Assembly: GCA_002049455.2 (NCBI GenBank)
Contig: KV918829.1
Coordinates: 221,157-285,156 of the forward strand
Direction of reading: 5' to 3'
Length of the DNA stretch: 64,000 nucleotides
DNA from: Porphyra umbilicalis
Taxonomy: Eukaryota > Rhodophyta > Bangiophyceae > Bangiales > Bangiaceae
Part shown: positions 15,966 through 63,550 of the stretch, piece after piece
Numbering within the stretch: position 1 is the stretch's first letter
Layout of the letters: the number at the start of each line of letters is the position of its first letter
Program-made: the position numbers and the translations under genes
Notes under the pieces: model-generated
What the model was told of the DNA's origin: nothing
Seen by the model: only the letters and a program-made list of their open reading frames with translations
Database searches by the model: none

Positions 15966-16885
15966 GACGATAGAACTGTTTTCACACGACGAAAGATACA
16001 TAGGCAAGTCGAGCACCGCCTCCCGGGTGAGCGTCACCTGCACGACCGGCGCCGCTTGGGAGCGCACTTACGAGCGGGAGATCAGAAAAAAGGAGACGAG
16101 GAAGGCGGCCATGGCGGCAGTGGTGGCGGTCGCCGACGTGACCACTGCTTGCTGGCGTAGGGGGCGCTCCGCCCACCGCCGCCGCGGCGTCCACCGCTGC
16201 CCGCACGAGCGGCAGCTGCTGCCATCGGGGGGGTACCCGCCCACTGGTGGGTAGCGGCCGCCCGCACGCTCCTCGACGATCAGCGCTTTGTCTTCGTCCG
16301 AGAGGGGGTAGGTGATCGCCGCGAGGGGCTCCTGCCGCACCCACCGGAGGGTCAGCAGCGGCCGCCACCGCCGTGGCGGGCGGCGGCTGCCACCAAGGCA
16401 CGGCCGCCACCATCTGAGCAACCACCGGCCGACGCTGGCTGGGCAGTCGTCGCTTTCCGCAGCGCAGACTCGAGGCCGAGCTGCGCGATGCGCACGTGCG
16501 CGGCGGCGACGCGGTGGATGGGGAGGGGGGGTATGTGGGGCCACAGAGGGGGAGGGGGGGGAAAGAAGCCGTTGATGGCACGGGGGGGCGGGCGGCGGGG
16601 TGGAGCTAGAAAATAGCAGGGGCTCCACGCCGCCGCCGCCGCCGCCGCCGGCACCGCCGCGGCCGCGGCCGCCGCGGCCGCGGGCGCCACCCGCTGCCGT
16701 GTGCGGGCGCGCGTCGTGCGCACGGTCGTCCACTGCTCACCGCCGCGTCGGCGGCAGGCGCGGCGGCAGCACCGCCAGCGGCGGTGGCCGCCGCCCCCAC
16801 CCGCCGCGCGTGGGTGTTGCGGGAAGGGACGCGACCACGCAGGCCGCAGCGCATTCAGCGCCGACACGACCCCCTGTTTGAAGAA

Positions 16886-17350
16886 TCAAAACCGACGTCT
16901 CCCACAGGGCCCGCAGAGCCCGATTCTGGCCAAGTACCGCGGAATCGCGACATCATAGCCGTCTGTGGCCGCGTCCATCTGCCCCCACGACCCCGTAAAC
17001 GCCGAACCTGCCCTCGCACACCTGTTTAACCACGATTCTGCTTCCGCGGACCGTACGGGCGATGAAGACGTCGCCACCTCTAGCAACTTCACAGAAAGAT
17101 GCGGGCAGCCCCGGCGCATGTTCCCATAGTCAAGAAAGCGCCGGGAGACGTCCTGCAACGGCGTAGGGAGCCAAACGGACCGCCAAAAACGTTTTTTAAG
17201 TACTCCCGCAACGTGCACTAGAAAAAAGGACTTTTTTTTCGACGTGTGGGTGTGAGAAAGCACCCTAGACTCAAGTCCAGGGAATTTAGACTTGAAGCAT
17301 TCCGCGTCGCGACTCACTTGGCACGTGGTTATATTTTTCATGCACTGCAT
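16886..17350 (-). CDS. Hypothetical ORF in duplicated arm (left copy)
   Basis: This 154-codon frame is preserved in both arms (right copy 46851-47315). Nothing in it matches a family that I know. The part after a pyrimidine tract and TAG (starting HVAGVLKKRFWRS) may be an exon, because the same 24-bp junction occurs a third time at 62638-62661 after another pyrimidine tract and TAG. Confidence 0.25.
   Translation of the reverse strand: MQCMKNITTCQVSRDAECFKSKFPGLESRVLSHTHTSKKKSFFLVHVAGVLKKRFWRSVWLPTPLQDVSRRFLDYGNMRRGCPHLSVKLLEVATSSSPVRSAEAESWLNRCARAGSAFTGSWGQMDAATDGYDVAIPRYLARIGLCGPCGRRRF
17197..17220 (-). repeat. 24-bp motif, copy 1
   Basis: This is an exact 24-mer (core GTACTCCCGCAACGTGCA) shared with 46981-47004 (inverted) and 62638-62661. 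On the coding strand it follows a pyrimidine tract and contains TAG, as a splice acceptor would. Confidence 0.7.
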
Positions 17351-18433
17351 TGGTTTTTATTTTTATTTCATTGCGGGCGTCCACGGGCAGGCGCGCGCGC
17401 CAGAGCCGTCCGCCCCGGAGCGCGCCGGCCCCCCACCCAGGCGACGCCGTGCTTGCGACAGTCCTAAGCCACGCACGGCTCGCCGACAGCCTCACCCCCC
17501 CAGCCCACCGGCCTCACACCCACGTCCGCCTCCGCCACCGCTACCGCGCAGTCCACCCGCTCCCTGGTGCAGACGCCACGCCACTCCCGCCCCCTTTTCC
17601 ATGATGGCTAGGCTTGTTGCCTGTAGCAAGCCTATCGCAGAAGGGAGGCGCGGGCGCAGGGTCCGCCGCCGCCGCCGTAGGGGCTGCCACCGGCTAGCCA
17701 GCGGCGTCTTCACCCATCCCCCCCTCCAGCACCACGGCCCCTCATCCCCTCCACAGCCCTCCGAACGTACCCCCCTGTCCGTTCTCCTCCCCCCACGACG
17801 TACCGCGCGGTCAGTTGCGTAACATCCCGCATGGCCGGATCCGCCACCGCGACACCACCACCCTCTCGCACGGGCCACACGCACGACGCCGCCCTCTCCT
17901 CGTCACAGGTCCGCGCACAGCACCACGCGGGCAGCTGCGTCACGCCACTAGCGACTGCCCGCTCCAGTCACTACGCGCCACGGTCAGACTGTGGGATTAC
18001 AGGCTCGTGCCAGTGGTCGGCGGATATCCCTCGGCCTGTGAACGACCGTGTCACCAGGAAAGGGGGGGAGTCAGTAGACGTTCTCGTCCCCACAACGGTG
18101 GTTTACTGAGGGAAGCAATGACAATCGACACCCCCTCGGTGGCGGCTCGCAGCCGTGCCGAGGCCAGCCATAAGACCCGCTGTCCCGGGGCCAGCGCGCG
18201 TACGCGTGCGCAGGGCCCCTCAAGGGCGCCTCTCCTCCACGCCCTCGATTCCCCCCGACAGGTAGTGTCAGGAGATCCCGCGAGTCGCCCGTGTCCGGCC
18301 ACGTTAAGGGGGCCCGTCACAAATAGACCGCTAATCGGTAGCTAACTAGACACGCACTAGAGAACTCTCGCTGGTACTGTCAACCATAGTGGCCCGAGAT
18401 TGACCGCAATCGGGCCGGCCAGGGGGAGTTGAC

Positions 18434-18781
18434 TCACACTCCCGGGACTTCCGTGGTCTGACACGGAGACGCGGTACCGGGTCGGATGACCCACTGCTCA
18501 ACGGGGGTGCGGTCCACCCCCGTCGCCAGGAGCGGCTCGAGCGCGCCGCTTGGCTTCACCTTCGTGAGGCTGTCGGCAATGTTGTTGTCGCTCATAACCA
18601 GGCCGACGTTGGAAATCTCCCGGCGGTTGTAGGCCTCCCGGGCTGCCGCCACGTCGATGAGGAGGCGCTTCTCCGTCGGGTGTGAGCCACGAGTGACGAC
18701 GTCAAAGAGCTGCTTTGAGTCGGTGAGGATGGTCATCGGGATGTGGCAGTCGTACAACCGCTCCAGGTCGTGGCGGAGCAT
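18434..18781 (-). pseudogene. Copia RNase H, left copy (frame-shifted)
   Basis: This is the C-terminal end of the Copia polyprotein: MLRHDLERLYDCHIPMTILTDSKQLFDVV, with the DSKQ and later MSDNNIADSLTK segments usual for Copia RNase H tails. It is out of frame with the RT part at 18792 by one base, at the FDEAY junction, exactly as in the right copy. The break therefore predates the duplication. Confidence 0.7.
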
Positions 18782-18791
18782 GTAGGCCTCG

Positions 18792-20780
18792 TCAAACGGA
18801 CCGCACCACGCGGCGCGACTTGCGGCTGGAGAAGCTCAAGACGTGTGCCCGTCCGCGACCATCCACCAGCAGGATGATGAATCCCAGCTGGGACGACTGG
18901 TCGTCGTTGGTCGCAAAGGACGCGTCCGCATAGGCTCGTAGCTGCAGAGTGGTCCGGTCAAGAGGCGGGTAGTGGAGCTCTAATGAGGGGGATGCCTGCG
19001 CCGCCCTGATCGCCTTGTTCAGGGCGTTCACGTGTCGGGGCTCGTAGGTCGCCTTGCTGACCTGGGCAGCCTTGTTAATGGCGCACCCAAGGTCAGGGCG
19101 CGTGTGCCCGACCCATGCGACCGCCGCCCGTACGGAGGTGAAGCGCTCGTAGGAGGCGCCCGTGGTTAGCAGCGTGAGCGACGCGACGTACGCCGTCTGG
19201 TCCAACGTAAAGGTCCGCGGGAGGCGCCGCGAGGTCTTGACCTGCACGCCGACGAACTCCATCTCGTCCATCTGCCGAGGCTTGGCCTCGAACACCCGCA
19301 ACGTCGTCTTGGTGGCCGTCTGGAACTCGTCTGTGCCGCCCAAGAGGCAGTCGTCAACGAACGTACCCATCAGGTCGACGAGGCCATTGACACCCTTGCG
19401 CATATAGAGCGCTGGATCTGACGACAACGGGGTCATGAGGAGGTCGTCGCGGACGTGCCGCTGCAAGGTCACGAACCAATAGTCACCCGCGTCACACACC
19501 CCGTACAAGGGGCGAACCAGCAGAAGGACCTCATCGTCAGTGAGGTCAAAGAGGTGTCGGTCCTCGGGGCGTGGGTCCAGGTACAGGGTGCGGGCGAGTG
19601 TGTCGCGGCTCTGCAGGTAGGCCTGGTTAATGTCGTGAGAAAACAGCCGGAACTGCAGGACCGCCGACGTCGACACCAACAACCGCGTGGACCGCTGCCG
19701 CAAGGTGGCCAAGTTGTGCACCATGAACGGCTTGGCCTTGTCCAGGTGACCTTGTGCGACATAGCGGGCCTTGGGCTTCTCGTCGGATGTGCCCACATCC
19801 TTGAGCGTGAAGACGAAGCGGCCGCGGATAATGTTGCTGCCCGTCGGGAGGCTGCTGCGCGCGACGGGGCGGATAGCTCCACGTGTGAGCAGCCCATCGA
19901 CCTCCGCCTTGGCAGCCGCCTGGGATGTGCCCACATCCTTGAGCGTGAAGACGAAGCGGCCGCGGATAATGTTGCTGCCCGTCGGGAGGCTGCTGCGCGC
20001 GACGGGGCGCATAGCTCCACGTGTGAGCAGCCCATCGACCTCCGCCTTGGCAGCCGCCTGGAACGCCGCTGTGGGAGTTCGTGGGTCCCCCGCTGGGACG
20101 TCCTTGGTGAGGTACACGGTTCGTGCTCCGTTGCCCGTCCGCGAGGCCGGGTCCTCGCGCTTCATAGCCCTGCACGCGGCGCCCACAGAGACCAGGTACT
20201 GCTTACCGCTGATGATGGCATCCAGCAGGGCGCCCAAGTCCTCCGGCTCCGTCGCACTGCCGCGCACCGTCCCTACGGGCGTCGACCGAGGTGATGGAGG
20301 GTGGGCCGCACCATTGACACCGGACTTCTGTGGAGCGCCGGCCGCTGTGCGTTGCCCGCCCCCGGCTCCGGTCGCCGTAACACCTTGATTCGTTGCCACC
20401 GGCGACGCTCCTGGGGTGGCGTCCCCACGACTGCCGGTGCCCTCCGCCCCCCAATCCTCGGTTATGCCTGCCGCGGGCGGCTCCCCTTGGCGGGTCGGTT
20501 GAGTCGTCCCCGGTGGAGTGCCCCCGACTGCGGGGGGCGCACTGCCGGCCACTTTCGGGGGGTGGTAGAGCAGTTGTTTGTCGACGCTGAAGGGCCGCAT
20601 GGCCCCACCGACGTCCATCCAGGCCAACTTGTCACGAAGCGCCACTATCGAATGGGGGCCAACCCAGCTGTCAACGGGTGGCTCCCGGTACACAAGCACC
20701 TGGGCGCCCAACACCAGGTCGGCGTCGCTCGCAGCAGGGATGCGGTCGCGGAGCGCGACGCGGAGCCGCGCGCGCGCCAC
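18792..20780 (-). pseudogene. Copia reverse transcriptase region, left copy
   Basis: This 662-codon open stretch is equivalent to 43423-45411 and contains the same RT block (GTFVDDCLLGG) and RNase H start (YADASFATNDD). It begins directly after the in-frame TAG that ends the integrase part. It shares the internal 138-bp tandem duplication (19785-20060). Only a handful of substitutions separate it from the right copy. Confidence 0.8.
19785..20060 (-). repeat. 138-bp tandem duplication inside the Copia RT, left copy
   Basis: Two adjacent 138-bp units encode a repeated 46-residue segment starting QAAAKAEVDGLLTRGA and ending FTLKDVGTS. The units differ by one residue (Met/Ile). The right copy has it too, at 44143-44418. 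Confidence 0.92.
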
Positions 20781-21382
20781 CTACGCGCGCATCTCCTTCC
20801 GTGCGGTGTCCGCCGCGCGCATGCAGTCCAGCTGCGCGGGTAGGAGCAACGGGCTCACGGGTATCCGGGGGATAAGGCCAATGACCAACAAGGTGGGCAC
20901 TAGGCCGTGTGGTCGGATGGTTTGATTCATTGCCGACACTGTGAGGGCGAGGACCACCTCGGGGGGCACATCCGGGTGGTCGCGCTTGACACGCCGGTAG
21001 ATGTTCCGGAGCACGGCATGGTATCGCTCGCCGGCGCCCAATGAGTTGTGTGACTCCGCTCCTGACTCAATGTGGCGCGTACCGGCTGCGTGCACCAGCG
21101 CCCGCCACCCTGCCGCGACAAACTGCGGGCCTTGATCTGTGTGCATGGCCTCTGGGTGCCCCGCGTAGGCGTAGACCCAACTCCGCGTGTAGGCCCACCA
21201 CACGGCCTCCACCGTCTCGCCCTGCAGAAGTGTGGCGGCGCTGAACAGCGTGTCCTTATCGACTACGTGCAGCACCGGCTTACCGTCAAGGTACATCAGG
21301 TCCAGGAGCACCGTGCGGTTGAAAACAATGTCTTGTGTGGGCAACGCCATACGGAAGCGACTAAGCGCCCGTGCTAGGCGTA
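20781..21382 (-). pseudogene. Copia integrase core, left copy, cut by the chromovirus LTR
   Basis: The integrase core is present with its first Asp (DLMYLDG), second Asp (MHTDQGPQF) and Glu (LGAGERYH). The N-terminal HHCC part found in the right copy is missing, because the sequence switches to the gypsy LTR at 21383. The part ends with an in-frame TAG before the RT stretch. Confidence 0.8.
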
Positions 21383-22111
21383 TGTGACGGTCCGTCACAT
21401 GGCCCCCACACTCCGGGATCCAGATTCCCCGGAAATATGCCCCACTAACGCATATTTCAAATTGTTCCGTTGGCGACCCACTTGTGCTCATCTCGTGGCT
21501 CACCAACCACAACCGCAATCCCAATACTTCCCTGTGATTCATAACCCCCTCGAGCGGGCCCCTACTTAAGGGCCTAATTTTGTGTAAACCCCACTTGGAT
21601 TAGCGACTTATGTTACTTTGTGCCCCTGACTCCGGGGCACCGCGCGGGTGTCACGTAGCACCCTTCCCCCCGCCTCTACTCAAGGCGGTATTCGAAGCTT
21701 CGGCCGTCCTCCGAGTTATGAGCCCAGTGGGCCCTGAGGAGAGGGCTTTCCGTGGGTCCTTTGAGGGTGTCTGAGAAGGGTTTTCCGAGGGTCCTTTGAG
21801 GGAGTCTGGGGAGGGTTTTCCGAGGGTCCTTTGAGGGTGTCTGAGGAGGATTTTCCGAGGTTCCGAGGGGAACGGACGGGATAAGAGGGTGAGGCGTGAG
21901 TGTCGCCTCGAGGCCTTCGACGCGGGCAAGTAAACTTCCGGTCACACAACTCGTGTTTGTCGCTCGGGGCGCCTTCCCCCGGTCGACGCCGTGCGTGTGT
22001 GCTCTTCGGGGTTTCCTTCCGGGGCGGGTATTCCCCGACAGGACTACCCGGCGACACGGTTTGGCTCGCCCTCCCCCCAGCTGGGTGGGGTGGACTGAGC
22101 GTGTTGTCACA
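21383..22111 (+). repeat. 5' LTR of the chromovirus
   Basis: The LTR starts TGTGACGGTCCGTCACA, itself a palindrome, and ends TGTTGTCACA, so the termini are TGTGAC/GTCACA inverted repeats. A 35-bp unit (TTTTCCGAGGGTCCTTTGAG and 15 further bases) is tandemly repeated around 21740-21870. A CTTAAGGG block near 21565 may be a promoter element. Confidence 0.92.
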
Positions 22112-24562: not shown

Positions 24563-27500
24563 GTGGACCCAACCCGGGACGTGGATAAGATGCCAGTACG
24601 CATCCTATCCCGACCCAAGGGGATCCGCCCCCGGGACGCACCCCTCCCGAAGGGGGTAAGCGGCCAGAATGTGGTGGCCATCCTGACGGGGTCCAACTAC
24701 CAGGTGGCCAGTCGCGTCTGGCTGGACGCGGGGCGTGAGCTAGCCCTCCGCGTCATAGTCGACACGGGGTCGTGTGTCTCCCTAGTACGGGAAGCGCTAC
24801 TCCCCCCGGAGATGGAGGTGGCGCCCTTAGACGCGGCGACCGCCCAGTTGTTTGACGTGAATGGGGGACTCCTCCCCATCACGGGCACCGTGACTCTCAC
24901 GGTGCGAGTCGGCACTTACTCCACCCCAGTCACGTGTGGGGTAGTGCCGGGCATGTCGGTCCCCCTACTCCTAGGGACCGACTACACGGACGTCCATGTC
25001 CCCAACATCTGCGGGCCCAAGGGGTACATCCGGTTACTGAACGGATGTAGGGTCCCCATCCTCCGACGGGGTAAGACGGTGTCGTATGCCCGGGCGGACC
25101 AACCCAAGTCGGGGACCGCTAGTGAGGCTGACACCAAGGTGCACCTAGCACGCGAGGTGGTTATACCCCCGAGATCCCGGGGATACGTCCCAGTACAGAC
25201 GTCATTCCAAGGGAATGGGGTCATCACCCAGCGCCATCGGGTGTATGAGCGCCACCGCGTGCATGTTGCAACTGGCACCATGGACTGCACCGCCAACCAG
25301 ACGTGGTGGGTGGAGGTAACCCATACGGGGAACACGAGTAAGCGACTCCCCAAGGGCATGGTCATGGGGCATATGTCGGCCTACTCCGGTACGGTAGCCG
25401 CCATATCCCGAGAGGACTGGGCTGCACTCAGCCCCAGTCCGACCACCGCGCCCGACGCAACGGACCCCGTGGAGGAGCCCCACGTTCATACTTCGAACGT
25501 GCCCGAGGGGCTGCGGCCTCAAGTGCTCGCCCTACTGGAGAAGCACCGAGCCCTCTGGAGTGGGCACTTGGGCTCCATCAAGGCCACGGAGCACCGGATC
25601 GAGTTGAAGCCGGGCTCCAAGCCCGTCCGGCTCAACCCCTACCGGATGGGTCCCCGAACTAGGGAACTCATCAAGGCCCAAGTCGACCGAATGCTCAAGC
25701 TCGAAGTTATAGAGCTCAGCCAGAGTGAATGGGCTAGCCCGGTGGTACTCATCCCGAAGCCCGATGGGAGTCCTCGGTTCTGCATCGACTATCGGCAGTT
25801 GAACGAGCGCACAGTACGCGACTCGTATCCACTACCCCGGATGGACGACTGCCCCGACTCCTTAGGGGATGCACAGTTCTTCTCCACGTTGGACTGCAAC
25901 GCGGGGTACTGGCAGATCCCCCTAGCCGAGGAGGATAAGCCGAAGACGGCATTCACTTGCCACTGCGGGACGTACCAGTGTAAGCGTCTTCCGTTTGGCC
26001 TGTGCAATGCCCCTGCCACTTTCCAGCGGGCTATTGACATGATCCTATCCGGAGTCAAGTGGCAGAATGTGCTCGTCTACTTAGACGACCTCATCATCTT
26101 CTCCGCCGATGCCGAGTCGCACCTGTCCCACTTGGACACGGTGCTCACCTTACTCGGGAAGCACGGGGTCACACTCAAGGCACAGAAGTGCCACCTCTTT
26201 ACTAATGAGGTGGAGTACCTTGGCCATGTAGTACGGCCAGGACGCTTGAGTGTTAACGAGAAGAACCTCAAGGCCATCAAGAAGGCCAGCTTCCCCCAGA
26301 CCCAAACCCAACTTAGGAGTTTCCTGGGGATGTGCAATGTCTACCGTCGGTTCACGGTAGACTTCGCTAAGACCGCGAAGCCGCTGAACAACTTGAACAG
26401 CGTAAAGCTTCCTAAGCGGTTGAGTCCCCCTACTCCGGAGGAACAGAACGCGTTCGACAAACTACGCGAACAGCTATGCCACCCGCCCATCCTTGCGATA
26501 CCGCGCAAGGAGGGGAAGTACATCATCGATGTGGACGCGAGCTACGACCAGCTAGGGTGCTGCCTACTGCAGCAGCAACCCGATGGCAAGTACCTGCCCG
26601 TAGGCTACTTCAGTAAGGGCCTACTACCGGCGGAGAAGAACTACACCGTCACCGAGATTGAGGGACTAGGTGTGGTGTGGGCGGTCGGTTTACTACGACC
26701 GTACATCGAAGGCACCAAGTTCCTCATCCGGTGTGACCACAAGGCACTGAAGTGGATACTAACCACGACGGCCTGCACCAACAATCGACTCAATCGTTGG
26801 CGCATCCTCCTCTCGGAGTTCGACTATGATGTGGAGTACAATCCCGGCCCCCAACATGCGGTGGCCGACGCCCTGTCCCGCATCCCGACTGAGGGGCTGG
26901 ACATGGGACCCATCTCCCAGGAGATCCCCACAGTCGGGGTGACCACTCGATCGGGGGCGGTACTCGACCCCCGACTCCCCGAGAACAGGGAGACTGTCCG
27001 CATACCCCTGGGCGAACTAGTCCAGAAGCAGGCGACAGACGAGTTCTGTCAGGGGGTCAAGAAGTTACTTGACACCCCCACCCCCACGCGCTTCTACGAG
27101 AACGCAGACGGGTTGTTGTGCCGTCGCGGACACCGCGAGGGGACCCAGCAGGTACTGGTCCCCCAGTCGCTAGTCAAGGACGTATTACGGGCAGAGCACT
27201 CCTCCCCCTTGGCTGCGCATCCAGGTGGGACGCGCATGTACCAGACCCTGCGGGACCAATACTACTGGCCCTCGCTGGCGATGGATGTGTTCGGGTGGGT
27301 GGCAGCATGCCCCACCTGTGCTAAGAACCGGCTCATGGGTACGCAGAGTAAAGCGTTCATGAGGTTGTTCCCCGCGACGGAACCCTTCGCACCTCTGGCC
27401 ATTGACTTACTTGGCCCCCTGCCCAGGACCCCCGAAGGATATGAGTATATCCTAGTTATTTGTGACCGATTTACTAAGGTCACTCGGGCGGTCCCGCTTC

Positions 27501-28483
27501 GTGACATCACGGCTCTGGATGTTCTCAGCGCATTCCTCGACACGTGGGTTGCTAGCTATGGGATCTCCGATTCAGTTCTATCGGATAACGGACCCCAATT
27601 TGCTGCCGTACTCTGGCAAGGGGTACTCAAGACCCTGGGTATTGACACTAACTATGCCACCCCGTACCACCCACAAACTAATGGGCAGGTCGAACGGTTT
27701 AATAAGACCATAGTTAAGCAACTACGCCACTACGTAAGTGACCACGTAGTTACGTGGTCCCGATACTTAAGCCTGGTAGTAACGGCTTACAATTCGCAAG
27801 TGCATAGTAGCACCGGGCAGATCCCCTTTGCGTTCGTAAGCCCCCGACGGCTTACTCCCGTGGCCCTCGAGCGACTTACAGCGGGTACCGACACCGGAGA
27901 GATAGTAACCCCCGGGCGAGCCAAAGAGAATTTCCTCCAGCGCCTTGAGTCCCTTATCCCCCTAGTACGGGGGACCATGGAGAAGGCACAGGCCCGGTAC
28001 AAACGAGCATTCGACAAGCGCGTGCAGACTCGCCGCGAAGCGCTCCAAGTCGGAGACTGGGTATTCGTGAACTCCCACGAGAACCAGGGGGGTAAGCTCG
28101 TCTTCAAGACACTGGGACCCTACCAGATCTTGAAGACAGACGGGCGTCGGCTTACCATCGAAAGTGACGATGGTATCCGGACCATCAATGGGAACCACGC
28201 CACCCGGGCCCCGAAACCACCCGAGGGGGACCCGGCGTGGGCGCGGGCACCGGCCGCGTGGCGGGTCCCGTCCCTCCCCTCATCGGCCAGTAAACCGATT
28301 GAGGCTGTCTTCGACCGCTTTGTCGGACAGGGGTACGATGACCAAGAGCGACTCATGCTCAAGGTCAGGTGGTTCGGGTATGGACCCCGGGAGGACTCCT
28401 GGCACTATGTGGAGGACCTCCCGGCTGAGAAGGTCCGCCAGCACTGTGTGCGGCACCGGCTCACAATGAGAGGAAGGGTATAA
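24563..28483 (+). CDS. pol: Chromovirus Pol polyprotein (PR-RT-RH-INT-chromodomain)
   Basis: About 1306 codons are open from a GTG at 24563; the first ATG is at 24590. The aspartic protease shows VIVDTGSCVSLV (Asp near residue 67). The reverse transcriptase has IDYRQLN, LPFGLCNAPATFQR and the catalytic YLDD at residue 506. RNase H follows (IIDVDASYDQLGC, then CDHKALKWIL). The integrase has the HHCC zinc finger (ending CPTCAKNR) and a DD35E core: Asp948 (IDLLGP), Asp1008 (SDNGPQF) and Glu1044 (NGQVERFN). Residues about 1246-1300 form a chromodomain-like end (LMLKVRWFGYGPREDSWHY), which in chromoviruses guides integration to marked chromatin. All catalytic residues are present and the frame is unbroken, so the copy may be active. 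Expression relative to Gag probably uses reinitiation, splicing or an unseen start, because a 200-bp gap and a frame change lie between. Confidence 0.93.
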   Translation: MDPTRDVDKMPVRILSRPKGIRPRDAPLPKGVSGQNVVAILTGSNYQVASRVWLDAGRELALRVIVDTGSCVSLVREALLPPEMEVAPLDAATAQLFDVNGGLLPITGTVTLTVRVGTYSTPVTCGVVPGMSVPLLLGTDYTDVHVPNICGPKGYIRLLNGCRVPILRRGKTVSYARADQPKSGTASEADTKVHLAREVVIPPRSRGYVPVQTSFQGNGVITQRHRVYERHRVHVATGTMDCTANQTWWVEVTHTGNTSKRLPKGMVMGHMSAYSGTVAAISREDWAALSPSPTTAPDATDPVEEPHVHTSNVPEGLRPQVLALLEKHRALWSGHLGSIKATEHRIELKPGSKPVRLNPYRMGPRTRELIKAQVDRMLKLEVIELSQSEWASPVVLIPKPDGSPRFCIDYRQLNERTVRDSYPLPRMDDCPDSLGDAQFFSTLDCNAGYWQIPLAEEDKPKTAFTCHCGTYQCKRLPFGLCNAPATFQRAIDMILSGVKWQNVLVYLDDLIIFSADAESHLSHLDTVLTLLGKHGVTLKAQKCHLFTNEVEYLGHVVRPGRLSVNEKNLKAIKKASFPQTQTQLRSFLGMCNVYRRFTVDFAKTAKPLNNLNSVKLPKRLSPPTPEEQNAFDKLREQLCHPPILAIPRKEGKYIIDVDASYDQLGCCLLQQQPDGKYLPVGYFSKGLLPAEKNYTVTEIEGLGVVWAVGLLRPYIEGTKFLIRCDHKALKWILTTTACTNNRLNRWRILLSEFDYDVEYNPGPQHAVADALSRIPTEGLDMGPISQEIPTVGVTTRSGAVLDPRLPENRETVRIPLGELVQKQATDEFCQGVKKLLDTPTPTRFYENADGLLCRRGHREGTQQVLVPQSLVKDVLRAEHSSPLAAHPGGTRMYQTLRDQYYWPSLAMDVFGWVAACPTCAKNRLMGTQSKAFMRLFPATEPFAPLAIDLLGPLPRTPEGYEYILVICDRFTKVTRAVPLRDITALDVLSAFLDTWVASYGISDSVLSDNGPQFAAVLWQGVLKTLGIDTNYATPYHPQTNGQVERFNKTIVKQLRHYVSDHVVTWSRYLSLVVTAYNSQVHSSTGQIPFAFVSPRRLTPVALERLTAGTDTGEIVTPGRAKENFLQRLESLIPLVRGTMEKAQARYKRAFDKRVQTRREALQVGDWVFVNSHENQGGKLVFKTLGPYQILKTDGRRLTIESDDGIRTINGNHATRAPKPPEGDPAWARAPAAWRVPSLPSSASKPIEAVFDRFVGQGYDDQERLMLKVRWFGYGPREDSWHYVEDLPAEKVRQHCVRHRLTMRGRV

Positions 28484-28620
28484 AACAACTAACAACCCCC
28501 AGTATGGGGTACCCCTCGCACACACCCCCGACAATAGATCCAACCCAACTAGGGACAAGCCCACCGGGGGCCGGGTCGCGCCTCACTGAGCGCCCCGGCG
28601 CCCCACTCAAACCTGGGTAC

Positions 28621-30966
28621 CTACTCCCTACCCGGCGAGCGCGGGCGGTCGTCGCGGACGTACCCCCCAAACTGGTCGTAACCCGAATGGTCCGGGTACT
28701 CCTGGGCCGACCCCCGGTCCGAGGGGCCCGGCCCCCACGACGAGCGCGGCACCCTACTCGGTGCCTCCCCCGCCGCGGAGAACCCCCCACCAGTGGAGGG
28801 GTAGCCGCCCCCATGGTAGGGCGCGGCTGAGCCCGCATGCTCCCCGGCGTACGGGACCCGACTGGGGCCCCCGCCCGCCGAAGTCCCGGCGGGCCCAGCC
28901 GCCACCCGCTGGCCATGCCCCTCCAAGCGGAAGGCCATCTGGTACCCGATGGCCTCTGGCGTGGTGTCCACCAGGAACTGCGCGGCTGCGGCAGACCGGG
29001 GGGACGAGGAGTCCCGCAGTACGGACCCCGCCGCCCGGGTGACCCACGCCAGGGTGTCCACCAGGGAGGCAACTATCGCCTCCCCATGGGCCACCCTCAG
29101 CGCCCCCGCCGCACTTGGGTAGGTGGTTGCCAAGGCGAGGGCGCACCACGGGGTGACGTACCCCCAGCTGAGGCTCTGCCCCGGCCCAAGGGACGGGTAG
29201 TACGGCACCCCCGGCGGGGCGAACGTCGGACGGCCCGACCGCCCAGCGGGGGATGCCCCCGCCCGGGTGGTCCGCCGGACAGCGCTTCCACGAGCAGGGG
29301 GGCGCTCGGCAGTACCTCGGGTACGCTTGCGCTGCTGGGGGGCACTGGCCCCCGGCGCACCCCAACCCGAGCTCGGTGGGGGCGACGTCGCCGTTACCCC
29401 CGCCGAGTAGGGGTAGGCCAGGTCACCCAGGCCCTCGCAGAGGCCTATGCGCCCGGCCACCAGGCGTGTGTCACAGTGGACAAACGCCCGAGGCGCCTCG
29501 CCCTCCTCCCCGCTAACTCGGCGGGCCAGGTAGGGCCCGGCCGCCTCCCAGTCCAAAGACTGGTGAAGGTCCAGCAACTCGCTGAGGTAGGCGTGCGCGT
29601 CCGGGCCGGCCCCCTCCGCCACGTTGGCGAGGCGGAGCCCCACCAGACGCCCCACTATGGCGGCTGGCAGGTGCCAGAGGTACCCCTTAGTCCGGGCGGA
29701 GGCATACCACACCCCCACTACCTCCAGTACCCACTGGGTAGCGAGGATGGCCGCCGCCGGGGTAGACTCCCCCCGGCGGAGCGCAGTGCCAAAGTAGGCC
29801 ACTATGCGCGGCATCCGGGCCGGGAACCCGAAGGGCACCTCCATGGCCGACCACCAGGACGGCGTCGGGACGTAGTATGCCCGACGCGTCGAGGTGTGGA
29901 CCTGGGAACTCTCCACTTGAGAGGCCCGCACCAGGATGCCCGACGCGTCCCGCACCCGGCGTTCGGTGCGGGCGTCCTGGTGGTGGAAGTGGGGGTCCGT
30001 CTCCCCCAAGTACGGGGGGGAGCAACACGCCCACTCCCACGCCACGACGGGCGGCACGTCGTCGGCGGTGGCCCCGTCCATCACATTGGACAGGCGCGCG
30101 GCCACGCGCTCCACCCACGGCGCGTCCCCCGCCTCCTGTAGGGCGGGGAGGTCCGTGGCCACCCCGGAAGGCAGTTCGTACTGCACGGGGTGGCGCGCCA
30201 GCCAGCGCTGCCAAGCCGGGCCCTGCTTGGGTAGCGGGATCGCCGAGTAAAGCGCCCGCAAGCGGCACTCCCCCATCTGACTGGGGGCAGCCGGGGGCGT
30301 CCACTGAACCAACGCCCCCGGCTCCGCAAGCCCCGCCTCCCCCACTGCCGGTAGGCGCTCCCGGCACGGCACCGGCGGGGGGGACTCCTGCTCCATGGGA
30401 TCATCCCCCGCCTCGCCCGGCTCCGCTGCCGCCGCCGGGGGAGTGGCCGGCCGGCTGGGCGGCAGCGGCACGCGCGCCGCCACCGCGCGGGACCCGACCG
30501 CGTCCTCCCCGGCCGACCGCGTCGGCGCACTTGACGCGCGGGAGGCCGACGCCGACCCCGCCGACGACTTGGACCGGCGGGGGGGAGGCGGCGGTTGGGT
30601 TGCTTGACTCCCCGCCGCCGACGACTCCCGGCTCGGGGGCGCGGCGTTGGCCTGGCGCGCCCGGCGGGCTGCCTTGCCCCGGGACGCCGCCACGGCCGCG
30701 CCACTTGACTTGGTGGCGCCGGCCGGCGTGGCCGTTGCCGACGCCGCCGCCCCGCCAACCCGCGGGGTGGCCGCCGTCGAGGCCTTGGCCTTGGGGGCGC
30801 CCATACTCCCCGGCGTCCCGCCCACCCGCGGGGATCCCGCCGCAGGGCTGCCCGACTTGGCCGTGGCCGACGCCGGCGTCCCACTCGGCACCGGCGTGGC
30901 GCGCCCCGCACTTGGGAAAGCCATCTCCTCGGTCGGCGCCGCTGCAGTCGACCGCGAGGAGGCCAT
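28621..30966 (-). CDS. Antisense accessory gene of the chromovirus, function unknown
   Basis: An ATG at 30966 opens 781 codons on the strand opposite gag-pol, between pol and the 3' LTR. Its stop lies 137 bp from the pol stop, so the two genes converge. Residues 1-225 are Ala/Pro/Ser-rich and probably disordered. Residues about 230-520 look folded and are rich in Trp, Tyr and Leu (for example PSWWSAMEVPFGFPARMP and TQWVLEVVGVWYASA). A basic linker follows (KRTRGTAERP...VRRTTRAG), then a second apolar stretch and a Gly/Tyr/Ser-rich tail. The segment STRRAYYVPTPSWWSAMEV...FGTALRRGESTP faintly recalls the SAM-like DNA-binding domain of tyrosine recombinases, but no R-H-R-Y catalytic residues follow, so this is speculation. 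A TATA-like box lies about 155 bp upstream. Antisense ORFs at this position are known in some plant Gypsy lineages; I cannot say whether this one is related. Confidence 0.78.
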   Translation of the reverse strand: MASSRSTAAAPTEEMAFPSAGRATPVPSGTPASATAKSGSPAAGSPRVGGTPGSMGAPKAKASTAATPRVGGAAASATATPAGATKSSGAAVAASRGKAARRARQANAAPPSRESSAAGSQATQPPPPPRRSKSSAGSASASRASSAPTRSAGEDAVGSRAVAARVPLPPSRPATPPAAAAEPGEAGDDPMEQESPPPVPCRERLPAVGEAGLAEPGALVQWTPPAAPSQMGECRLRALYSAIPLPKQGPAWQRWLARHPVQYELPSGVATDLPALQEAGDAPWVERVAARLSNVMDGATADDVPPVVAWEWACCSPPYLGETDPHFHHQDARTERRVRDASGILVRASQVESSQVHTSTRRAYYVPTPSWWSAMEVPFGFPARMPRIVAYFGTALRRGESTPAAAILATQWVLEVVGVWYASARTKGYLWHLPAAIVGRLVGLRLANVAEGAGPDAHAYLSELLDLHQSLDWEAAGPYLARRVSGEEGEAPRAFVHCDTRLVAGRIGLCEGLGDLAYPYSAGVTATSPPPSSGWGAPGASAPQQRKRTRGTAERPPARGSAVRRTTRAGASPAGRSGRPTFAPPGVPYYPSLGPGQSLSWGYVTPWCALALATTYPSAAGALRVAHGEAIVASLVDTLAWVTRAAGSVLRDSSSPRSAAAAQFLVDTTPEAIGYQMAFRLEGHGQRVAAGPAGTSAGGGPSRVPYAGEHAGSAAPYHGGGYPSTGGGFSAAGEAPSRVPRSSWGPGPSDRGSAQEYPDHSGYDQFGGYVRDDRPRSPGRE

Positions 30967-31120
30967 AGCCGCCGCGCCCGAGTAAAGGGGGCGGCGAGGG
31001 GGAGGGGGGTGCCCCGCGCGGTGAGGGACGCGGGGGGAGGCTCTCAACTTGAGTAGCGGTGGAGGGGGAGACGGTGACGGTCGGCAGTGGACGGCGTCCC
31101 CGTCTGACCCCCGCCTACCC

Positions 31121-31130
31121 CCTTTTTATG
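31121..31130 (-). promoter_or_regulatory. TATA-like box for the antisense gene
   Basis: On the minus strand the sequence is CATAAAAAGG, the only AT-rich hexamer in a very GC-rich 600-bp leader. It lies about 155 bp upstream of the antisense ATG at 30966 and points towards it, leaving room for a 5' leader of about 125 bases. Confidence 0.5.
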
Positions 31131-31566: not shown

Positions 31567-32295
31567 TGTGACGGTCCGTCACTTGGCCCCCACACTCCGG
31601 GATCCAGATTCCCCGGAAATATGCCCCACTGACGCATATTTCAAATTGTTCCGTTGGCGACCCACTTGTGCTCATCTCGTGGCTCACCAACCACAACCGC
31701 AATCCCAATACTTCCCTGTGATTCATAACCCCCTCGAGCGGGCCCCTACTTAAGGGCCTAATTTTGTGTAAACCCCACTTGGATTAGCGACTTATGTTAC
31801 TTTGTGCCCCTGACTCCGGGGCACCGCGCGGGTGTCACGTAGCACCCTTCCCCCCGCCTCTACTCAAGGCGGTATTCGAAGCTTCGGCCGTCCTCCGAGT
31901 TATGAGCCCAGTGGGCCCTGAGGAGAGGGCTTTCCGTGGGTCTTTTGAGGGTGTCTGAGAAGGGTTTTCCGAGGGTCCTTTGAGGGAGTCTGGGGAGGGT
32001 TTTCCGAGGGTCCTTTGAGGGTGTCTGAGGAGGGTTTTCCGAGGTTCCGAGGGGAACGGACGGGATAAGAGGGTGAGGCGTGAGTGTCGCCTCGAGGCCT
32101 TCGACGCGGGCAAGTAAACTTCCGGTCACACAACTCGTGTTTGTCGCTCGGGGCGCCTTCCCCCGGTCGACGCCGTGCGTGTGTGCTCTTCGGGGTTTCC
32201 TTCCGGGGCGGGTATTCCCCGACAGGACTACCCGGCGACACGGTTTGGCTCGCCCTCCCCCCAGCTGGGTGGGGTGGGCTGAGCGTGTTGTCGCA
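31567..32295 (+). repeat. 3' LTR of the chromovirus
   Basis: The length is identical to the 5' LTR (729 bp) with about six differences. It ends TGTTGTCGCA, one base changed from the TCACA terminus. It is followed by a C run rather than a copy of the left flank. Confidence 0.92.
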
Positions 32296-42450: not shown

Positions 42451-43422
42451 ATGCACGTTCCTCTGTCCCAAGCCTACTACCTCCCGTTGTCAATCGGCGT
42501 CATCCCACTGAACGTCCCCCTCCTCATCGGCCTTTACGTGTTGGATCGGTACGGTCTGTACGTCAACAACGTCGAGGACCGGCTGCGAAGCGACGGGCGC
42601 GACGTGGACGTGCCCCTCGTGCGAAAATACGGCCACATTTATCTCGCATGGGGCGCCGCCGACCACGGCACGACCACGGAGCTGGCGCGTGTCCACCGGC
42701 ACTGTGCGCACCCGCACCCTGACCGGCTCTTTGCCGTCTTGCGACCAGCAAAGGACCCCCATGCAACTGCGGAGACTCGTGCTCAGTTGGCCGAGGTGAC
42801 GGCGGAGTGCCAGGTGTGTCAACGCCTAGCACGGGCGCTCAGTCGCTTCCGTATGGCGTTGCCCACACAAGACATTGTTTTCAACCGCACGGTGCTCCTG
42901 GACCTGATGTACTTTGACGGTAAGCCGGTGCTGCACGTAGTCGATAAGGACGCGCTGTTCAGCGCCGCCACACTTCTGCAGGGCGAGACGGTGGAGGCCG
43001 TGTGGTGGGCCTACACGCGGAGTTGGGTCTACGCCTACGCGGGGCACCCAGAGGCCATGCACACAGATCAAGGCCCGCAGTTTGTCGCGGCAGGGTGGCG
43101 GGCGCTGGTGCACGCAGCCGGTACGCGCCACATTGAGTCAGGAGCGGAGTCACACAACTCATTGGGCGCCGGCGAGCGATACCATGCCGTGCTCCGGAAC
43201 ATCTACCGGCGTGTCAAGCGCGACCACCCGGATGTGCCCCCCGAGGTGGTCCTCGCCCTCACAGTGTCGGCAATGAATCAAACCATCCGACCACACGGCC
43301 TAGTGCCCACCTTGTTGGTCATTGGCCTTATCCCCCGGATACCCGTGAGCCCGTTGCTCCTACCCGCGCAGCTGGACCGCATGCGCGCGGCGGACACCGC
43401 ACGGAACGAGATGCGCGCGTAG
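42451..43422 (+). pseudogene. Copia protease end plus integrase, right copy
   Basis: The first residues (VPLLIGLYVLDRYGLYVNN) fit the C-terminal strand of a Copia protease. Next comes the GAG-pre-integrase zinc finger (ARVHRHCAHPHPDRLF...CQVCQ). The catalytic core has Asp151 (LDLMYFDG), Asp206 (HTDQGPQF) and Glu242 (LGAGERYH), a DD35E arrangement. The frame ends in TAG (43420-43422), but the following codons continue the integrase tail in the same frame. The break is therefore a single stop, kept in both duplicated copies. Confidence 0.82.
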
Positions 43423-45411
43423 GTGGCGCGCGCGCGGCTCCGCGTCGCGCTCCGCGACCGCATCCCTGCTGCGAGCGACGCCGACCTGGTGTTGGGCGCC
43501 CAGGTGCTTGTGTACCGGGAGCCACCCGTTGACAGCTGGGTTGGCCCCTATTCGATAGTGGCGCTTCGTGACAAGTTGGCCTGGATGGACGTCGGTGGGG
43601 CCATGCGGCCCTTCAGCGTCGACAAACTACTGCTCTACCACCCCCCGCAAGTGGCCCGCAGTGCGCCCCCCGCAGTCGGGGGCACTCCACCGGGGACGAC
43701 TCAACCGACCCGCCAAGGGGAGCCGCCCGCGGCAGGCATAACCGAGGAATGGGGGGCGGAGGGCACCGGCAGTCGTGGGGACGCCACCCCAGGAGCGTCG
43801 CCGGTGGCAACGAATCAAGGTGTTACGGCGACCGGAGCCGGGGGCGCGCAACGCACAGCGGCCGGCGCTCCACAGAAGTCCGGTGTCAATGGTGCGGCCC
43901 ACCCTCCATCACCTCGGTCGACGCCCGTAGGGACGGTGCGCGGCAGTGCGACGGAGCCGGAGGACTTGGGCGCCCTGCTGGATGCCATCATCAGCGGTAA
44001 GCAGTACCTGGTCTCGGTGGGCGCCGCGTGCAGGGCTATGAAGCGCGAGGACCCGGCCTCGCGGACGGGCAACGGAGCACGCAACGTGTACCTCACCAAG
44101 GACGTCCCAGCGGGGGACCCACGAACTCCCACAGCGGCGTTCCAGGCGGCTGCCAAGGCGGAGGTCGATGGGCTGCTCACACGTGGAGCTATGCGCCCCG
44201 TCGCGCGCAGCAGCCTCCCGACGGGCAGCAACATTATCCGCGGCCGCTTCGTCTTCACGCTCAAGGATGTGGGCACATCCCAGGCGGCTGCCAAGGCGGA
44301 GGTCGATGGGCTGCTCACACGTGGAGCTATCCGCCCCGTCGCGCGCAGCAGCCTCCCGACGGGCAGCAACATTATCCGCGGCCGCTTCGTCTTCACGCTC
44401 AAGGATGTGGGCACATCCGACGAGAAGCCCAAGGCCCGCTATGTCGCACAAGGTCACCTGGACAAGGCCAAGCCGTTCATGGTGCACAACTTGGCCACCT
44501 TGCGGCAGCGGTCCACGCGGTTGTTGGTGTCGACGTCGGCGGTCCTGCAGTTCCGGCTGTTTTCTCACGACATTAACCAGGCCTACCTGCAGAGCCGCGA
44601 CACACTCGCCCGCACCCTGTACCTGGACCCACGCCCCGAGGACCGACACCTCTTTGACCTCACTGACGATGAGGTCCTTCTGCTGGTTCGCCCCTTGTAC
44701 GGGGTGTGTGACGCGGGTGACTATTGGTTCGTGACCTTGCAGCGGCACGTCCGCGACGACCTCCTCATGACCCCGTTGTCGTCAGATCCAGCGCTCTATA
44801 TGCGCAAGGGTGTCAATGGCCTCGTCGACCTGATGGGTACGTTCGTTGACGACTGCCTCTTGGGCGGCACAGACGAGCTCCAGACGGCCACCAAGACGAC
44901 GTTGCGGGTGTTCGAGGCCAAGCCTCGGCAGATGGACGAGATGGAGTTCGTCGGCGTGCAGGTCAAGACCTCGCGGCGCCTCCCGCGGACCTTTACGTTG
45001 GACCAGACGGCGTACGTCGCGTCGCTCACGCTGCTAACCACGGGCGCCTCCTACGAGCGCTTCACCTCCGTACGGGCGGCGGTCGCATGGGTCGGGCACA
45101 CGCGCCCTGACCTTGGGTGCGCCATTAACAAGGCTGCCCAGGTCAGCAAGGCGACCTACGAGCCCCGACACGTGAACGCCCTGAACAAGGCGATCAGGGC
45201 GGCGCAGGCATCCCCCTCATTAGAGCTCCACTACCCGCCTCTTGACCGGACCACTCTGCAGCTACGAGCCTATGCGGACGCGTCCTTTGCGACCAACGAC
45301 GACCAGTCGTCCCAGCTGGGATTCATCATCCTGCTGGTGGATGGTCGCGGACAGGCACACGTCTTGAGCTTCTCCAGCCGCAAGTCGCGCCGCGTGATGC
45401 GGTCCGTTTGA
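43423..45411 (+). pseudogene. Copia reverse transcriptase region, right copy
   Basis: These 662 codons start right after the TAG at 43420. An integrase-tail segment (VLVYREPPVDSWVGPYSIVA) and a disordered linker precede the RT. Copia RT signatures are RFVFTLKD, KARYVAQGHLDK, FSHDINQAYLQS, VRPLYGVCDAGD and the catalytic FVDD (residues 474-477; usually YVDD). RNase H starts with RAYADASFATNDDQSSQLGF. The frame is lost at RSV/FDEAY (45405-45412). A tandem 46-residue duplication lies just before the RT core. Confidence 0.83.
44143..44418 (+). repeat. 138-bp tandem duplication inside the Copia RT, right copy
   Basis: Units 44143-44280 and 44281-44418 are identical apart from ATG/ATC (Met/Ile). 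The duplicated piece carries the start of the RT palm (RFVFTLKDVGTS), so the protein has that strand twice. Confidence 0.93.
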
Positions 45412-45421
45412 CGAGGCCTAC

Positions 45422-45769
45422 ATGCTCCGCCACGACCTGGAGCGGTTGTACGACTGCCACATCCCGATGACCATACTCACCGACTCAAAGCAGCTCTTTG
45501 ACGTCGTCACTCGTGGCTCACACCCGACGGAGAAGCGCCTCCTCATCGACGTGGCGGCAGCCCGGGAGGCCTACAACCGCCGGGAGATTTCCAACGTCGG
45601 CCTGGTTATGAGCGACAACAACATTGCCGACAGCCTCACGAAGGTGAAGCCAAGCGGCGCGCTCGAGCCGCTCCTGGCGACGGGGGTGGACCGCACCCCC
45701 GTTGAGCAGTGGGTCATCCGACCCGGTACCGCGTCTCCGTGTCAGACCACGGAAGTCCCAGGAGTGTGA
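45422..45769 (+). pseudogene. Copia RNase H tail, right copy
   Basis: The 115-codon frame carries the rest of RNase H (TILTDSKQLFDVVTRG, then MSDNNIADSLTKVKPSGAL). It is offset by one base from the RT stretch. It ends at a TGA after VPGV. Confidence 0.75.
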
Positions 45770-46850
45770 GTCGACTCCCCCTGGCCGGCCCGATTGCGGT
45801 CAATCTCGGGCCACTATGGTTGACAGTACCAGCGAGAGTTCTCTAGTGCGTGTCTAGTTAGCTACCGATTAGCGGTCTATTTGTGACGGGCCCCCTTAGC
45901 GTGGCCGGACACGGGCGACTCGCGGGATCTCCTGACACTACCTGTCGGGGGGAATCGAGGGCGTGGAGGAGAGGCGCCCTTGAGGGGCCCTGCGCACGCG
46001 TACGCGCGCTGGCCCCGGGACAGCGGGTCTTATGGCTGGCCTCGGCACGGCTGCGAGCCGCCACCGAGGGGGTGTCGATTGTCATTGCTTCCCTCAGTAA
46101 ACCACCGTTGTGGGGACGAGAACGTCTACTGACTCCCCCCCTTTCCCGGTGACACGGTCGTTCACAGGCCGAGGGATATCCGACCACTGGCACGAGCCTG
46201 TAATCCCACAGTCTGACCGTGGCGCGTAGTGACTGGAGCGGGCAGTCGCTAGTGGCGTGACGCAGCTGCCCGCGTGGTGCTGTGCGCGGACCTGTGACGA
46301 GGAGAGGGCGGCGTCGTGCGTGTGGCCCGTGCGAGAGGGTGGTGGTGTCGCGGTGGCGGATCCGGCCATGCGGGATGTTGCGCAACTGACCGCGCGGTAC
46401 GTCGTGGGGGGAGGAGAACGGACAGGGGGGTTCGTTTGGAGGGCTGTGGAGGGGATGAGGGGCCGTGGTGCTGGAGGGGGGGATGGGTGAAGACGCCGCT
46501 GGCTAGCCGGCGGCAGCCCCTACGGCGGCGGCGGCGGACCCTGCGCCCGCGCCTCCCTTCTGCGATAGGCTTGCTACAGGCAACAAGCCTAGCCATCATG
46601 GAAAAGGGGGCGGGAGTGGCGTGGCGTTTGCACCAGGGAGCGGGTGGACTGCGCGGTAGCGGTGGCGGAGGCGGACGTGGGTGTGAGGCCGGTGGGCTGG
46701 GGGGGGTGAGGCTGTCGGCGAGCCGTGCGTGGCTTAGGACTGTCGCAAGCACGGCGTCGCCTGGGTGGGGGGCCGGCGCGCTCCGGGGCGGACGGCTCTG
46801 GCGCGCGCGCCTGCCCGTGGACGCCCGCAATGAAATAAAAATAAAAACCA
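45770..46850. other. DNA beyond the Copia coding end, shared by both arms
   Basis: This may include the Copia 3' untranslated region and LTR, but with no second LTR to compare it cannot be delimited. The left-arm equivalent is 17351-18433. Confidence 0.35.
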
Positions 46851-47315
46851 ATGCAGTGCATGAAAAATATAACCACGTGCCAAGTGAGTCGCGACGCGGA
46901 ATGCTTCAAGTCTAAATTCCCTGGACTTGCGTCTAGGGTGCTTTCTCACACCCACACGTCGAAAAAAAAGTCCTTTTTTCTAGTGCACGTTGCGGGAGTA
47001 CTTAAAAAACGTTTTTGGCGGTCCGTTTGGCTCCCTACGCCGTTGCAGGACGTCTCCCGGCGCTTTCTTGACTATGGGAACATGCGCCGGGGCTGCCCGC
47101 ACCTTTCTGTGAAGTTGCTAGAGGTGGCGACGTCTTCATCGCCCGTACGGTCCGCGGAAGCAAAATCGTGGTTAAACAGGTGTGCGAGGGCAGGTTCGGC
47201 GTTTACGGGGTCGTGGGGGCAGATGGACGCGGCCACAGACGGCTATGATGTCGAGATTCCGCGGTACTTGGCCAGAATCCGGCTCTGCGGGCCCTGTGGG
47301 AGACGTCGGTTTTGA
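46851..47315 (+). CDS. Hypothetical ORF in duplicated arm (right copy)
   Basis: This frame of 154 codons is also open in the left arm (16886-17350), with a few substitutions. The stretch after the TAG at 46981 (HVAGVLKKRFWRS, then VSRRFLDYGN, then KLLEVATSSSP) might be an exon. The family is unknown and the frame could be non-coding. Confidence 0.25.
   Translation: MQCMKNITTCQVSRDAECFKSKFPGLASRVLSHTHTSKKKSFFLVHVAGVLKKRFWRSVWLPTPLQDVSRRFLDYGNMRRGCPHLSVKLLEVATSSSPVRSAEAKSWLNRCARAGSAFTGSWGQMDAATDGYDVEIPRYLARIRLCGPCGRRRF
46981..47004 (+). repeat. 24-bp motif, copy 2
   Basis: This is the exact inverse of 17197-17220, preceded by a CCTTTTTTC pyrimidine tract. Confidence 0.7.
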
Positions 47316-48111
47316 TTCTTCAAACAGGGGGTCGTGTCGGCGCTGAATGCGCTGCGGCCTGCGTGGTCGCGTCCCTTCCCGCAACACCCACGCGCGGCGG
47401 GTGGGGGCGGCGGCCACCGCCGCTGGCGGTGTTGCCGCCGCGCCTGCCGCCGACGCGGCGGTGAGCAGTGGACGACCGTGCGCACGACGCGCGCCCGCAC
47501 ACGGCAGCGGGTGGCGCCCGCGGCCGCGGCGGCCGCGGCCGCGGCGGTGCCGGCGGCGGCGGCGGCGGCGGCGTGGAGCCCCTGCTATTTTCTAGCTCCA
47601 CCCCGCCGCCCGCCCCCCCGTGCCATCGACGGCTTCTTTCCCCCCCCTCCCCCTCTGTGGCCCCACATACCCCCCCCTCCCCATCCACCGCGTCGCCGCC
47701 GCGCACGTGCGCATCGCGCAGCTCGGCCTCGAGTCTGCGCTGCGGAAAGCGACGACTGCCCAGCCAGCGTCGGCCGGTGGTTGCTCAGATGGTGGCGGCC
47801 GTGCCTTGGTGGCAGCCGCCGCCCGCCACGGCGGTGGCGGCCGCTGCTGACCCTCCGGTGGGTGCGGCAGGAGCCCCTCGCGGCGATCACCTACCCCCCC
47901 TCGGACGAAGACAAAGCGCTGGTCGCTCCCCCCCCCCCCCGCTGCCGCCGCCGTGACCGCCCGGGGCGACTGCCGTTAACGACTTCCCCCGACCCCGCGA
48001 CCGCCGCCGACGTCGCCGCCAAGTCCTCCGGCACCGCCCGCACACGGGACCATCTTTCCCTGCTGCGGCTTCAGAGTCGGACGGCGGCGCGCCGCCGCCG
48101 CCCCTCCCCGC

Positions 48112-62856: not shown

Positions 62857-63550
62857 TGTGACGGTCCGTCACATGGCCCCCACACTCCGGGATCCAGATT
62901 CCCCGGAAATATGCCCCACTAACGCATATTTCAAATTGTTCCGTTGGCGACCCACTTGTGATCATCTCGTGGCTCACCAACCACAACCGCAATCCCAATA
63001 CTTCCCTGGGATTCGTAACCCCCTCGAGCGGGCCCCTACTTAAGGGCCTAATTTTGTGTAAACCCAACTTGGATTATCGACTTATGTTACTTTGTGCCCC
63101 TGACTCCGGGGCGCCGCGAGGGTGTCACGTAGCACCCTTCCCCCCGCCTCTACTCAAGGCGGTATTCGAAGCTTCGGCCGTCCTCCGGGTTATGGGCCCA
63201 GTGGGCCCTGAGGAGAGGGCTTTCCGTGGGTCCTTTGAGGGTGTCTGAGGAGGGTTTTCCGAGGGTCCTTTGAGGGTGTCTGAGGAGGGTTTTCCGAGGG
63301 TCCGAGGGGAACGGATGGGATAAGAGGGTGAGGCGTGAGTGTCGCCTCGAGGCCTTGGACGCGGGCAAGTAAACTTCCGGTCACACAACTCGTGTTTGTC
63401 GCTCGGGGCGCCTTCCCCCGGTCGACGCCGTGCGTGTGTGCTCTTCGGGGTTTCCTTCCGGGGCGGGTATTCCCCGACAGGACTACCCGGAGACACGGTT
63501 TGGCTCGCCCTCCCCCCAACTGGGTGGGGTGGGCTGAGCGTGTTGTCACA
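62857..63550 (+). repeat. 5' LTR of the second chromovirus copy
   Basis: This LTR is 694 bp against 729 bp in the first copy. The difference is exactly one 35-bp unit fewer in the internal tandem repeat (about 63210-63300). Confidence 0.92.

Follow-up and report, generated by a model that had tools for sequence, protein, structure and literature searches.

We analyzed a 64,000-nucleotide stretch of the Porphyra umbilicalis genome (here called the window) that carries a Ty3/gypsy element with a long frame on its opposite strand, which we refer to as the antisense accessory gene (aORF). The aORF sits between pol and the 3' LTR and is convergent with pol (Table 1), in exactly the position and with the same spacing between stops given in a preliminary description of the locus. 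The mechanical ORF begins further up, with a TTG at 31047. We favored the ATG start because its first residues, MASSRST, recur as MASSAST in a second lineage of the element (lineage B, see below); several proteins from outside the genome have MASSRST or MTSSRST. GC content was 57 to 86% per kilobase across most of the window, in which we counted 53 ORFs of 250 codons or more; two sense-strand ORFs among them (434 and 363 aa, +) overlap the aORF. Because spurious long frames are common in such GC-rich sequence, the length of the aORF alone is no evidence for a gene.

Table 1. Features of the Ty3/gypsy element and its antisense frame, in window coordinates
Feature	Position	Strand	Basis or remark
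5' LTR, TG...CA, about 729 bp	21383..22111	+	Direct repeat with 31567-32295
gag ORF, 693 codons	22281..24362	+	CCHC zinc knuckle below Pfam cut-off (zf-CCHC E 0.006)
pol ORF: RT, RNase H, integrase	24563..28483	+	Pfam
Chromodomain-like integrase end, sub-threshold	28337..28423	+	Pfam Chromo E 0.025
Gap between convergent pol and aORF stops, 137 bp	28484..28620		ORF coordinates
Antisense accessory gene (aORF)	28621..30966	-	781 codons + stop, ATG start, no internal stop
aORF second folded region, residues 591-690	28897..29196	-	Helical bundle predicted at 606-690
aORF basic Pro/Ser/Gly linker, residues 526-590	29197..29391	-	11 K+R, 1 D+E
aORF conserved core, residues 221-525	29392..30306	-	Most constrained part; homology across lineages A, B, C
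TATA-like CATAAAAAGG, 164 bp upstream of aORF ATG	31121..31130	-	Putative promoter element
3' LTR	31567..32295	+	Direct repeat with 21383-22111

The preliminary description had called the element a young, intact chromovirus. The LTR pair differs by 6 mismatches in 728 aligned bases, in keeping with a young element, but the 5-mers flanking the two LTRs are unlike (GCGTA versus CCCCC), so that the flanks give no sign of a clean single insertion. The chromovirus label is tentative: a chromodomain-like match lies in the right place at the C terminus of pol, but its score (14.9 bits, E = 0.025 in the window; 19.9 bits, E = 0.00072 in lineage C) is under the Pfam cut-off of 25.1.

Other features of the window touch on its history. 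Positions 16277-21381 and 42822-47925 are the arms of an inverted duplication of 5 kb, whose longest pieces are 99% identical. Both arms contain an RT ORF of Copia type (RVT_2 was found in the right arm). The alignment of the left arm stops at the start of the 5' LTR, and the sequence past the 3' LTR does not carry on the right arm. Given these arm edges and the unlike flanking 5-mers, recombination or rearrangement at the window element is likely. A third LTR copy at 62857-63546, 97 to 98% identical over the compared 300-base stretches, is followed by the same primer-binding-site-like sequence as in the window element and probably belongs to the 5' end of a further copy running towards the window edge. 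At 51987-57359 (+), NB-ARC and about 14 tandem units of 138 bp that match TPR repeats lie in one 1,790-codon ORF, which is predicted to encode an NB-ARC-TPR protein whose repeats were amplified recently.

The Rubisco small subunit (PF00101) matched once in the genome, on a plastid-like contig of 185,000 bases (L096; G000:C665), with a GTG start for rbcS in the listed ORF. We take the flanking ORFs to be rbcL and cbbX. The rbcL-rbcS pair is described as common to red algae and chromists, with rbcS missing from green-lineage plastids (PMC3667073, in excerpt), and high nuclear GC as typical of the red-algal group of the host (PMC8752119, in excerpt). A plastid contig of this red type agrees with the algal setting assumed in the preliminary description.

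Copies and lineages in the genome

We searched the source assembly (83.8 Mb, 665 contigs) for copies of the frame, scoring the best candidates. A 701-base aORF piece gave 40 scored matches among 89 candidates, at 90 to 100% identity; the 296-residue core gave at least 134 matches at 33 to 100%. The core matches comprise three lineages: A, to which the window copy belongs, B (about 40 to 45% identical), and C (about 34%). The aORF is likewise convergent with pol in the stretches fetched from lineages B (L049) and C (L050, L051), and the spacing between the two stops is 137 bp in A, 138 bp in B, and 130 bp in two C copies. Between lineages, the aORF diverges faster than pol: aORF identity is 45.0% for A-B (309 residues), 32.2% for A-C (307), and 31.2% for B-C (173), versus 71.6, 50.2, and 50.4%, respectively, for pol.

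To quantify the association, we paired pol with aORF matches using 125 of 130 integrase rows (the five omitted were second pieces of copies already counted) and aORF rows from two core searches (115 of 134 and 48 of 133, with duplicate rows and fragments omitted). Among the best candidates scored, a convergent aORF core lay within 6 kb of pol in 97 of the 125 rows, leaving 28 without, and within 10 kb in 102, leaving 23. A first run with fewer aORF rows gave the same 97 and 28. The core was found on pol's own strand in none of the 125.

The integrity of the frame differs among copies. In lineage A, 2 of the 39 other copies span the whole frame free of in-frame stops, one of which carries a 2-base insertion. 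Among the 29 lineage C core matches that are full-length and at least 81% identical, 19 lack a stop; three lineage C copies differ at 16 to 25 of 2,208 bases.

Selection on the antisense frame

Taking the window copy as reference, we compared it with 39 further copies of lineage A, separating private changes (seen in one copy only) from shared changes (seen in at least four) and deriving the neutral ratio of amino-acid-changing to synonymous changes (N/S) from the observed, CpG-aware mutation spectrum. Private changes in the aORF (435 synonymous, 997 amino-acid-changing) gave an N/S of 0.99 of the neutral value (95% bootstrap interval, 0.91 to 1.09). Shared changes numbered 93 synonymous and 77 amino-acid-changing where 44.7 and 122.6 were expected, or 0.302 of neutral (0.22 to 0.40). 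In the core, the shared ratio fell to 0.186 (0.10 to 0.33), with a private ratio of 1.06. The difference between shared and private changes was significant for the whole frame (Fisher, p = 8e-10) and for the core (p = 1.2e-7). For a 918-base piece of the integrase in 23 other A copies, the ratios were 0.091 (shared) and 0.74 (private); the conservation of the aORF is comparable to that of other proteins of the element.

This pattern fits selection on the gene during movement of the element and decay after each insertion, a history that predicts neutral private and constrained shared changes, as seen. The preliminary description had counted random breakage of the frame in other copies against the gene. 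Most lineage A copies are indeed broken, but the combination of neutral private and constrained shared changes is what decay after insertion would leave. Its central proposal, that the element has a true antisense gene, is borne out by codon-level selection across copies, the very check it had suggested. Together, these comparisons indicate that the aORF is a real gene under protein-level selection in a transposing lineage, not a chance frame.

A chance open frame, or one that shadows a sense gene, is nonetheless the explanation that a GC-rich genome full of long spurious frames would bring to mind. The overlapping 434- and 363-aa sense ORFs had shared N/S values of 1.60 and 1.58, that is, no constraint, in contrast to 0.302 for the aORF, and homologous antisense frames were recovered down to 31% identity. 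We regard this explanation as having a negligible probability.

Another sense frame shares its third positions with the aORF; it looks constrained (N/S 0.376) and has matches in the other lineages (A-B, E = 1e-31; A-C, E = 1e-7), and a weaker A-B match (E = 3e-9) lies in yet another sense frame. We read these matches as probable shadows of the aORF rather than as genes, because the first of these frames has 17 stops in the window and the aORF frame scores better in every pair.

Putative promoter, predicted protein, and relatives

The preliminary description had assigned the aORF its own TATA-like box. In lineage A, the box is present (CATAAAAAGG, exact in 27 of the 33 copies covering the site), but it is not unusually conserved, ranking 80th of 584 ten-base windows. 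A weaker AT-rich motif (CATACAAAACGG) was found at about -189 in two of three lineage C copies read, and the lineage B stretch read had no TATA-like box at the corresponding place.

The convergent layout and the TATA-like box would also suit a role for the antisense RNA itself, in which transcription over the 3' half would yield RNA complementary to the genomic transcript, double-stranded RNA or interference would tune copy number, and the frame would be secondary; double-stranded RNA is raised as a possible role of such transcripts in the excerpted text of PMC7264820. However, selection acts at the amino acid level, in one frame, and most strongly in the core, and the core shows protein homology between lineages, which a role of the RNA would not need. 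We therefore consider an RNA-based role unlikely, although RNA and protein roles could coexist.

By composition, the proteins of lineages A, B, and C share a near-neutral, more hydrophobic core of about 300 residues, a basic linker rich in Pro, Ser, and Gly, a second region of 100 to 120 residues, and a low-complexity tail. As to a nuclear location, the one feature seen was the basic linker. In lineage A, a 220-residue low-complexity arm precedes the core. The plan proposed earlier, disordered-folded-basic-folded-disordered, recurs by composition in all three lineages; a confident structural model was obtained for the second folded part only. AlphaFold, run on residues 215-700, was confident only for the helical bundle at 606-690 (block pLDDT, 71 to 89), and the core had a pLDDT near 30 to 60. 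Foldseek comparison of the bundle and the aORF model with PDB structures gave no credible match. Searches of Pfam, NCBIfam, and PHROGs gave no match, and those of the PDB none that was credible; the protein showed no similarity to the element's own gag. The faint likeness to SAM-like recombinases noted earlier gained no support from Pfam or PDB profiles, none of which matched, but the core model is itself of low confidence. TRP28 (PF04195) had no match at E up to 1 in any of the 21 members of protein alignment A1; it was likewise absent from proteins P0022 and P0023 and, at E up to 0.1, from nine of nine further proteins.

Relatives outside the genome were sought among 5.8 billion proteins in three rounds, each scoring the 8,000 candidates with the most shared words. 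At least 102 protein clusters were recovered (20, then 42 including those 20, then 60 further). They come from JGI and ENA contigs, and some may be from the same species. No Pfam domain was listed for these clusters, and nine of nine scanned had no Pfam match at E up to 0.1. Among the viral contigs searched, no relative was confirmed. A host gene captured in antisense, and retained fortuitously or because it helps the host, would have precedent in the capture documented for other retrotransposons (PMC7264820, in excerpt), but we recognized no host homologue among the best-scored matches. Any capture would predate the split of the lineages, because the aORF is present in all three. We judge an origin of this kind to be very improbable.

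Copies without the antisense gene, proposed role, and known parallels

Seven of the 28 unpaired pol copies (on contigs C9, C46, C124, C340, C45, C276, and C97) hold an aORF-less module instead. In the two stretches examined (L054 and L055), about 1.9 to 2.1 kb separate the end of pol from a related 3' LTR that is 82 to 89% identical to the window's, and the module gave no aORF similarity beyond E = 0.6. In L054, where it occupies positions 341-2100, the module has tandem repeats with units of about 98 and 87 bp; it recurs on contig C359 in three places spaced by about 1.1 kb. The 1,341-codon pol frame is open in three of the seven aORF-less copies (C9, C340, and C124). Four aORF-less copies form one clade in our tree, with end branches of 0.004 to 0.018 changes per column. 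The copy on C97 branches outside the A group bearing the same module, with support of 94/98 in a tree in which 7 of 36 branches were well supported; this placement hints at an exchange of the 3' module.

Given the aORF-less pol copies, three of them with an open pol frame, these data indicate that the aORF is dispensable in cis. In such copies, the protein may work in trans, or it may simply not be needed for transposition. The same observations bear on a helper that acts preferentially in cis in structure or replication, such as a particle or envelope-like component. Selection on shared changes is of the same order in the aORF as in integrase, as such a helper would have it, but the open-pol, short-branch subfamily does without the aORF, and the protein has neither similarity to gag nor a described domain. 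We think a cis-acting helper improbable.

Instead, we consider it likely that the aORF is a real, ancient antisense accessory gene of a Ty3/gypsy lineage, encoding a trans-acting protein and perhaps served by its own promoter. The gene would be transcribed from this promoter in the GC-rich leader. The predicted protein would consist of a disordered arm, a helical core, a basic linker, a helical bundle, and a disordered tail, and would act in trans on replication of the element that encodes it, probably inside the nucleus. The core is without a known fold or motif, and the role in trans is an inference; possible jobs include regulating expression of the element, carrying its nucleoprotein complex, or countering silencing. 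The aORF-less subfamily with an open pol frame could amplify beside aORF-bearing copies, because one supply of protein could serve many copies. As a more speculative extension, which we offer tentatively, the aORF might represent a large, undescribed antisense family of red-algal Ty3/gypsy elements that arose independently of the Grande, Retand, and Boty genes discussed below. Its product would be a trans regulator or anti-silencing factor that serves as a common good and is exploited by a free-rider subfamily in which the tandem-repeat module has replaced the gene. Closely related copies with and without the aORF in one genome offer a natural contrast, and, if confirmed, the aORF-less subfamily would allow a direct test of the protein's job.

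ORFs in antisense orientation are on record between pol and the 3' LTR in the plant Gypsy families Grande, RIRE2, and Retand and in Boty of Botrytis; the excerpted texts (PMC7264820, PMC11963269, PMC8365987) state that the functions of Grande/Retand/Boty-type antisense genes are unknown. For an algal element, no description of a gene of this kind appeared among the best matches in the open-licence literature; PMC3350952 treats algal chromodomain elements, and the word "antisense" is absent from its text. Here, a gene in this antisense slot is under strong protein-level selection in a distant, GC-rich algal lineage.

The closest parallels share position and orientation with the aORF. The gene23 of Grande, a nuclear protein with its own reported promoter (PMC7264820, in excerpt), and the antisense ORF of RIRE2 likewise belong to Gypsy elements and lie antisense between pol and the 3' LTR, but their hosts are grasses rather than a red alga, and the likeness is one of slot and orientation. 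According to the excerpted text of PMC11963269, the Retand elements of angiosperms resemble the aORF element in their long pol-3' LTR region, with antisense ORFs in nearly all active clusters, and about half have tandem repeats in this region. They differ, by the same account, in being non-chromovirus elements of Eudicotyledons and Liliopsida, and in having a TRP28 domain, which we did not find in the aORF. Boty-like elements of Botrytis cinerea carry the antisense gene brtn in an LTR element, like the aORF (PMC8365987 and PMC7264820, in excerpt); their host is a fungus, and brtn is likened by orientation. The antisense accessory gene of HTLV, which likewise sits at the 3' end of its retroelement, is also named as a parallel (PMC11963269 and PMC7264820, in excerpt), but HTLV is a retrovirus and its antisense promoter is in the 3' LTR. 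Thus, the aORF is apparently the same kind of gene as the antisense genes of Grande, Retand, and Boty, in an apparently unrelated protein family. If this is confirmed, Gypsy elements of plants, fungi, and algae would seem to have arrived repeatedly at an antisense gene placed between pol and the 3' LTR.
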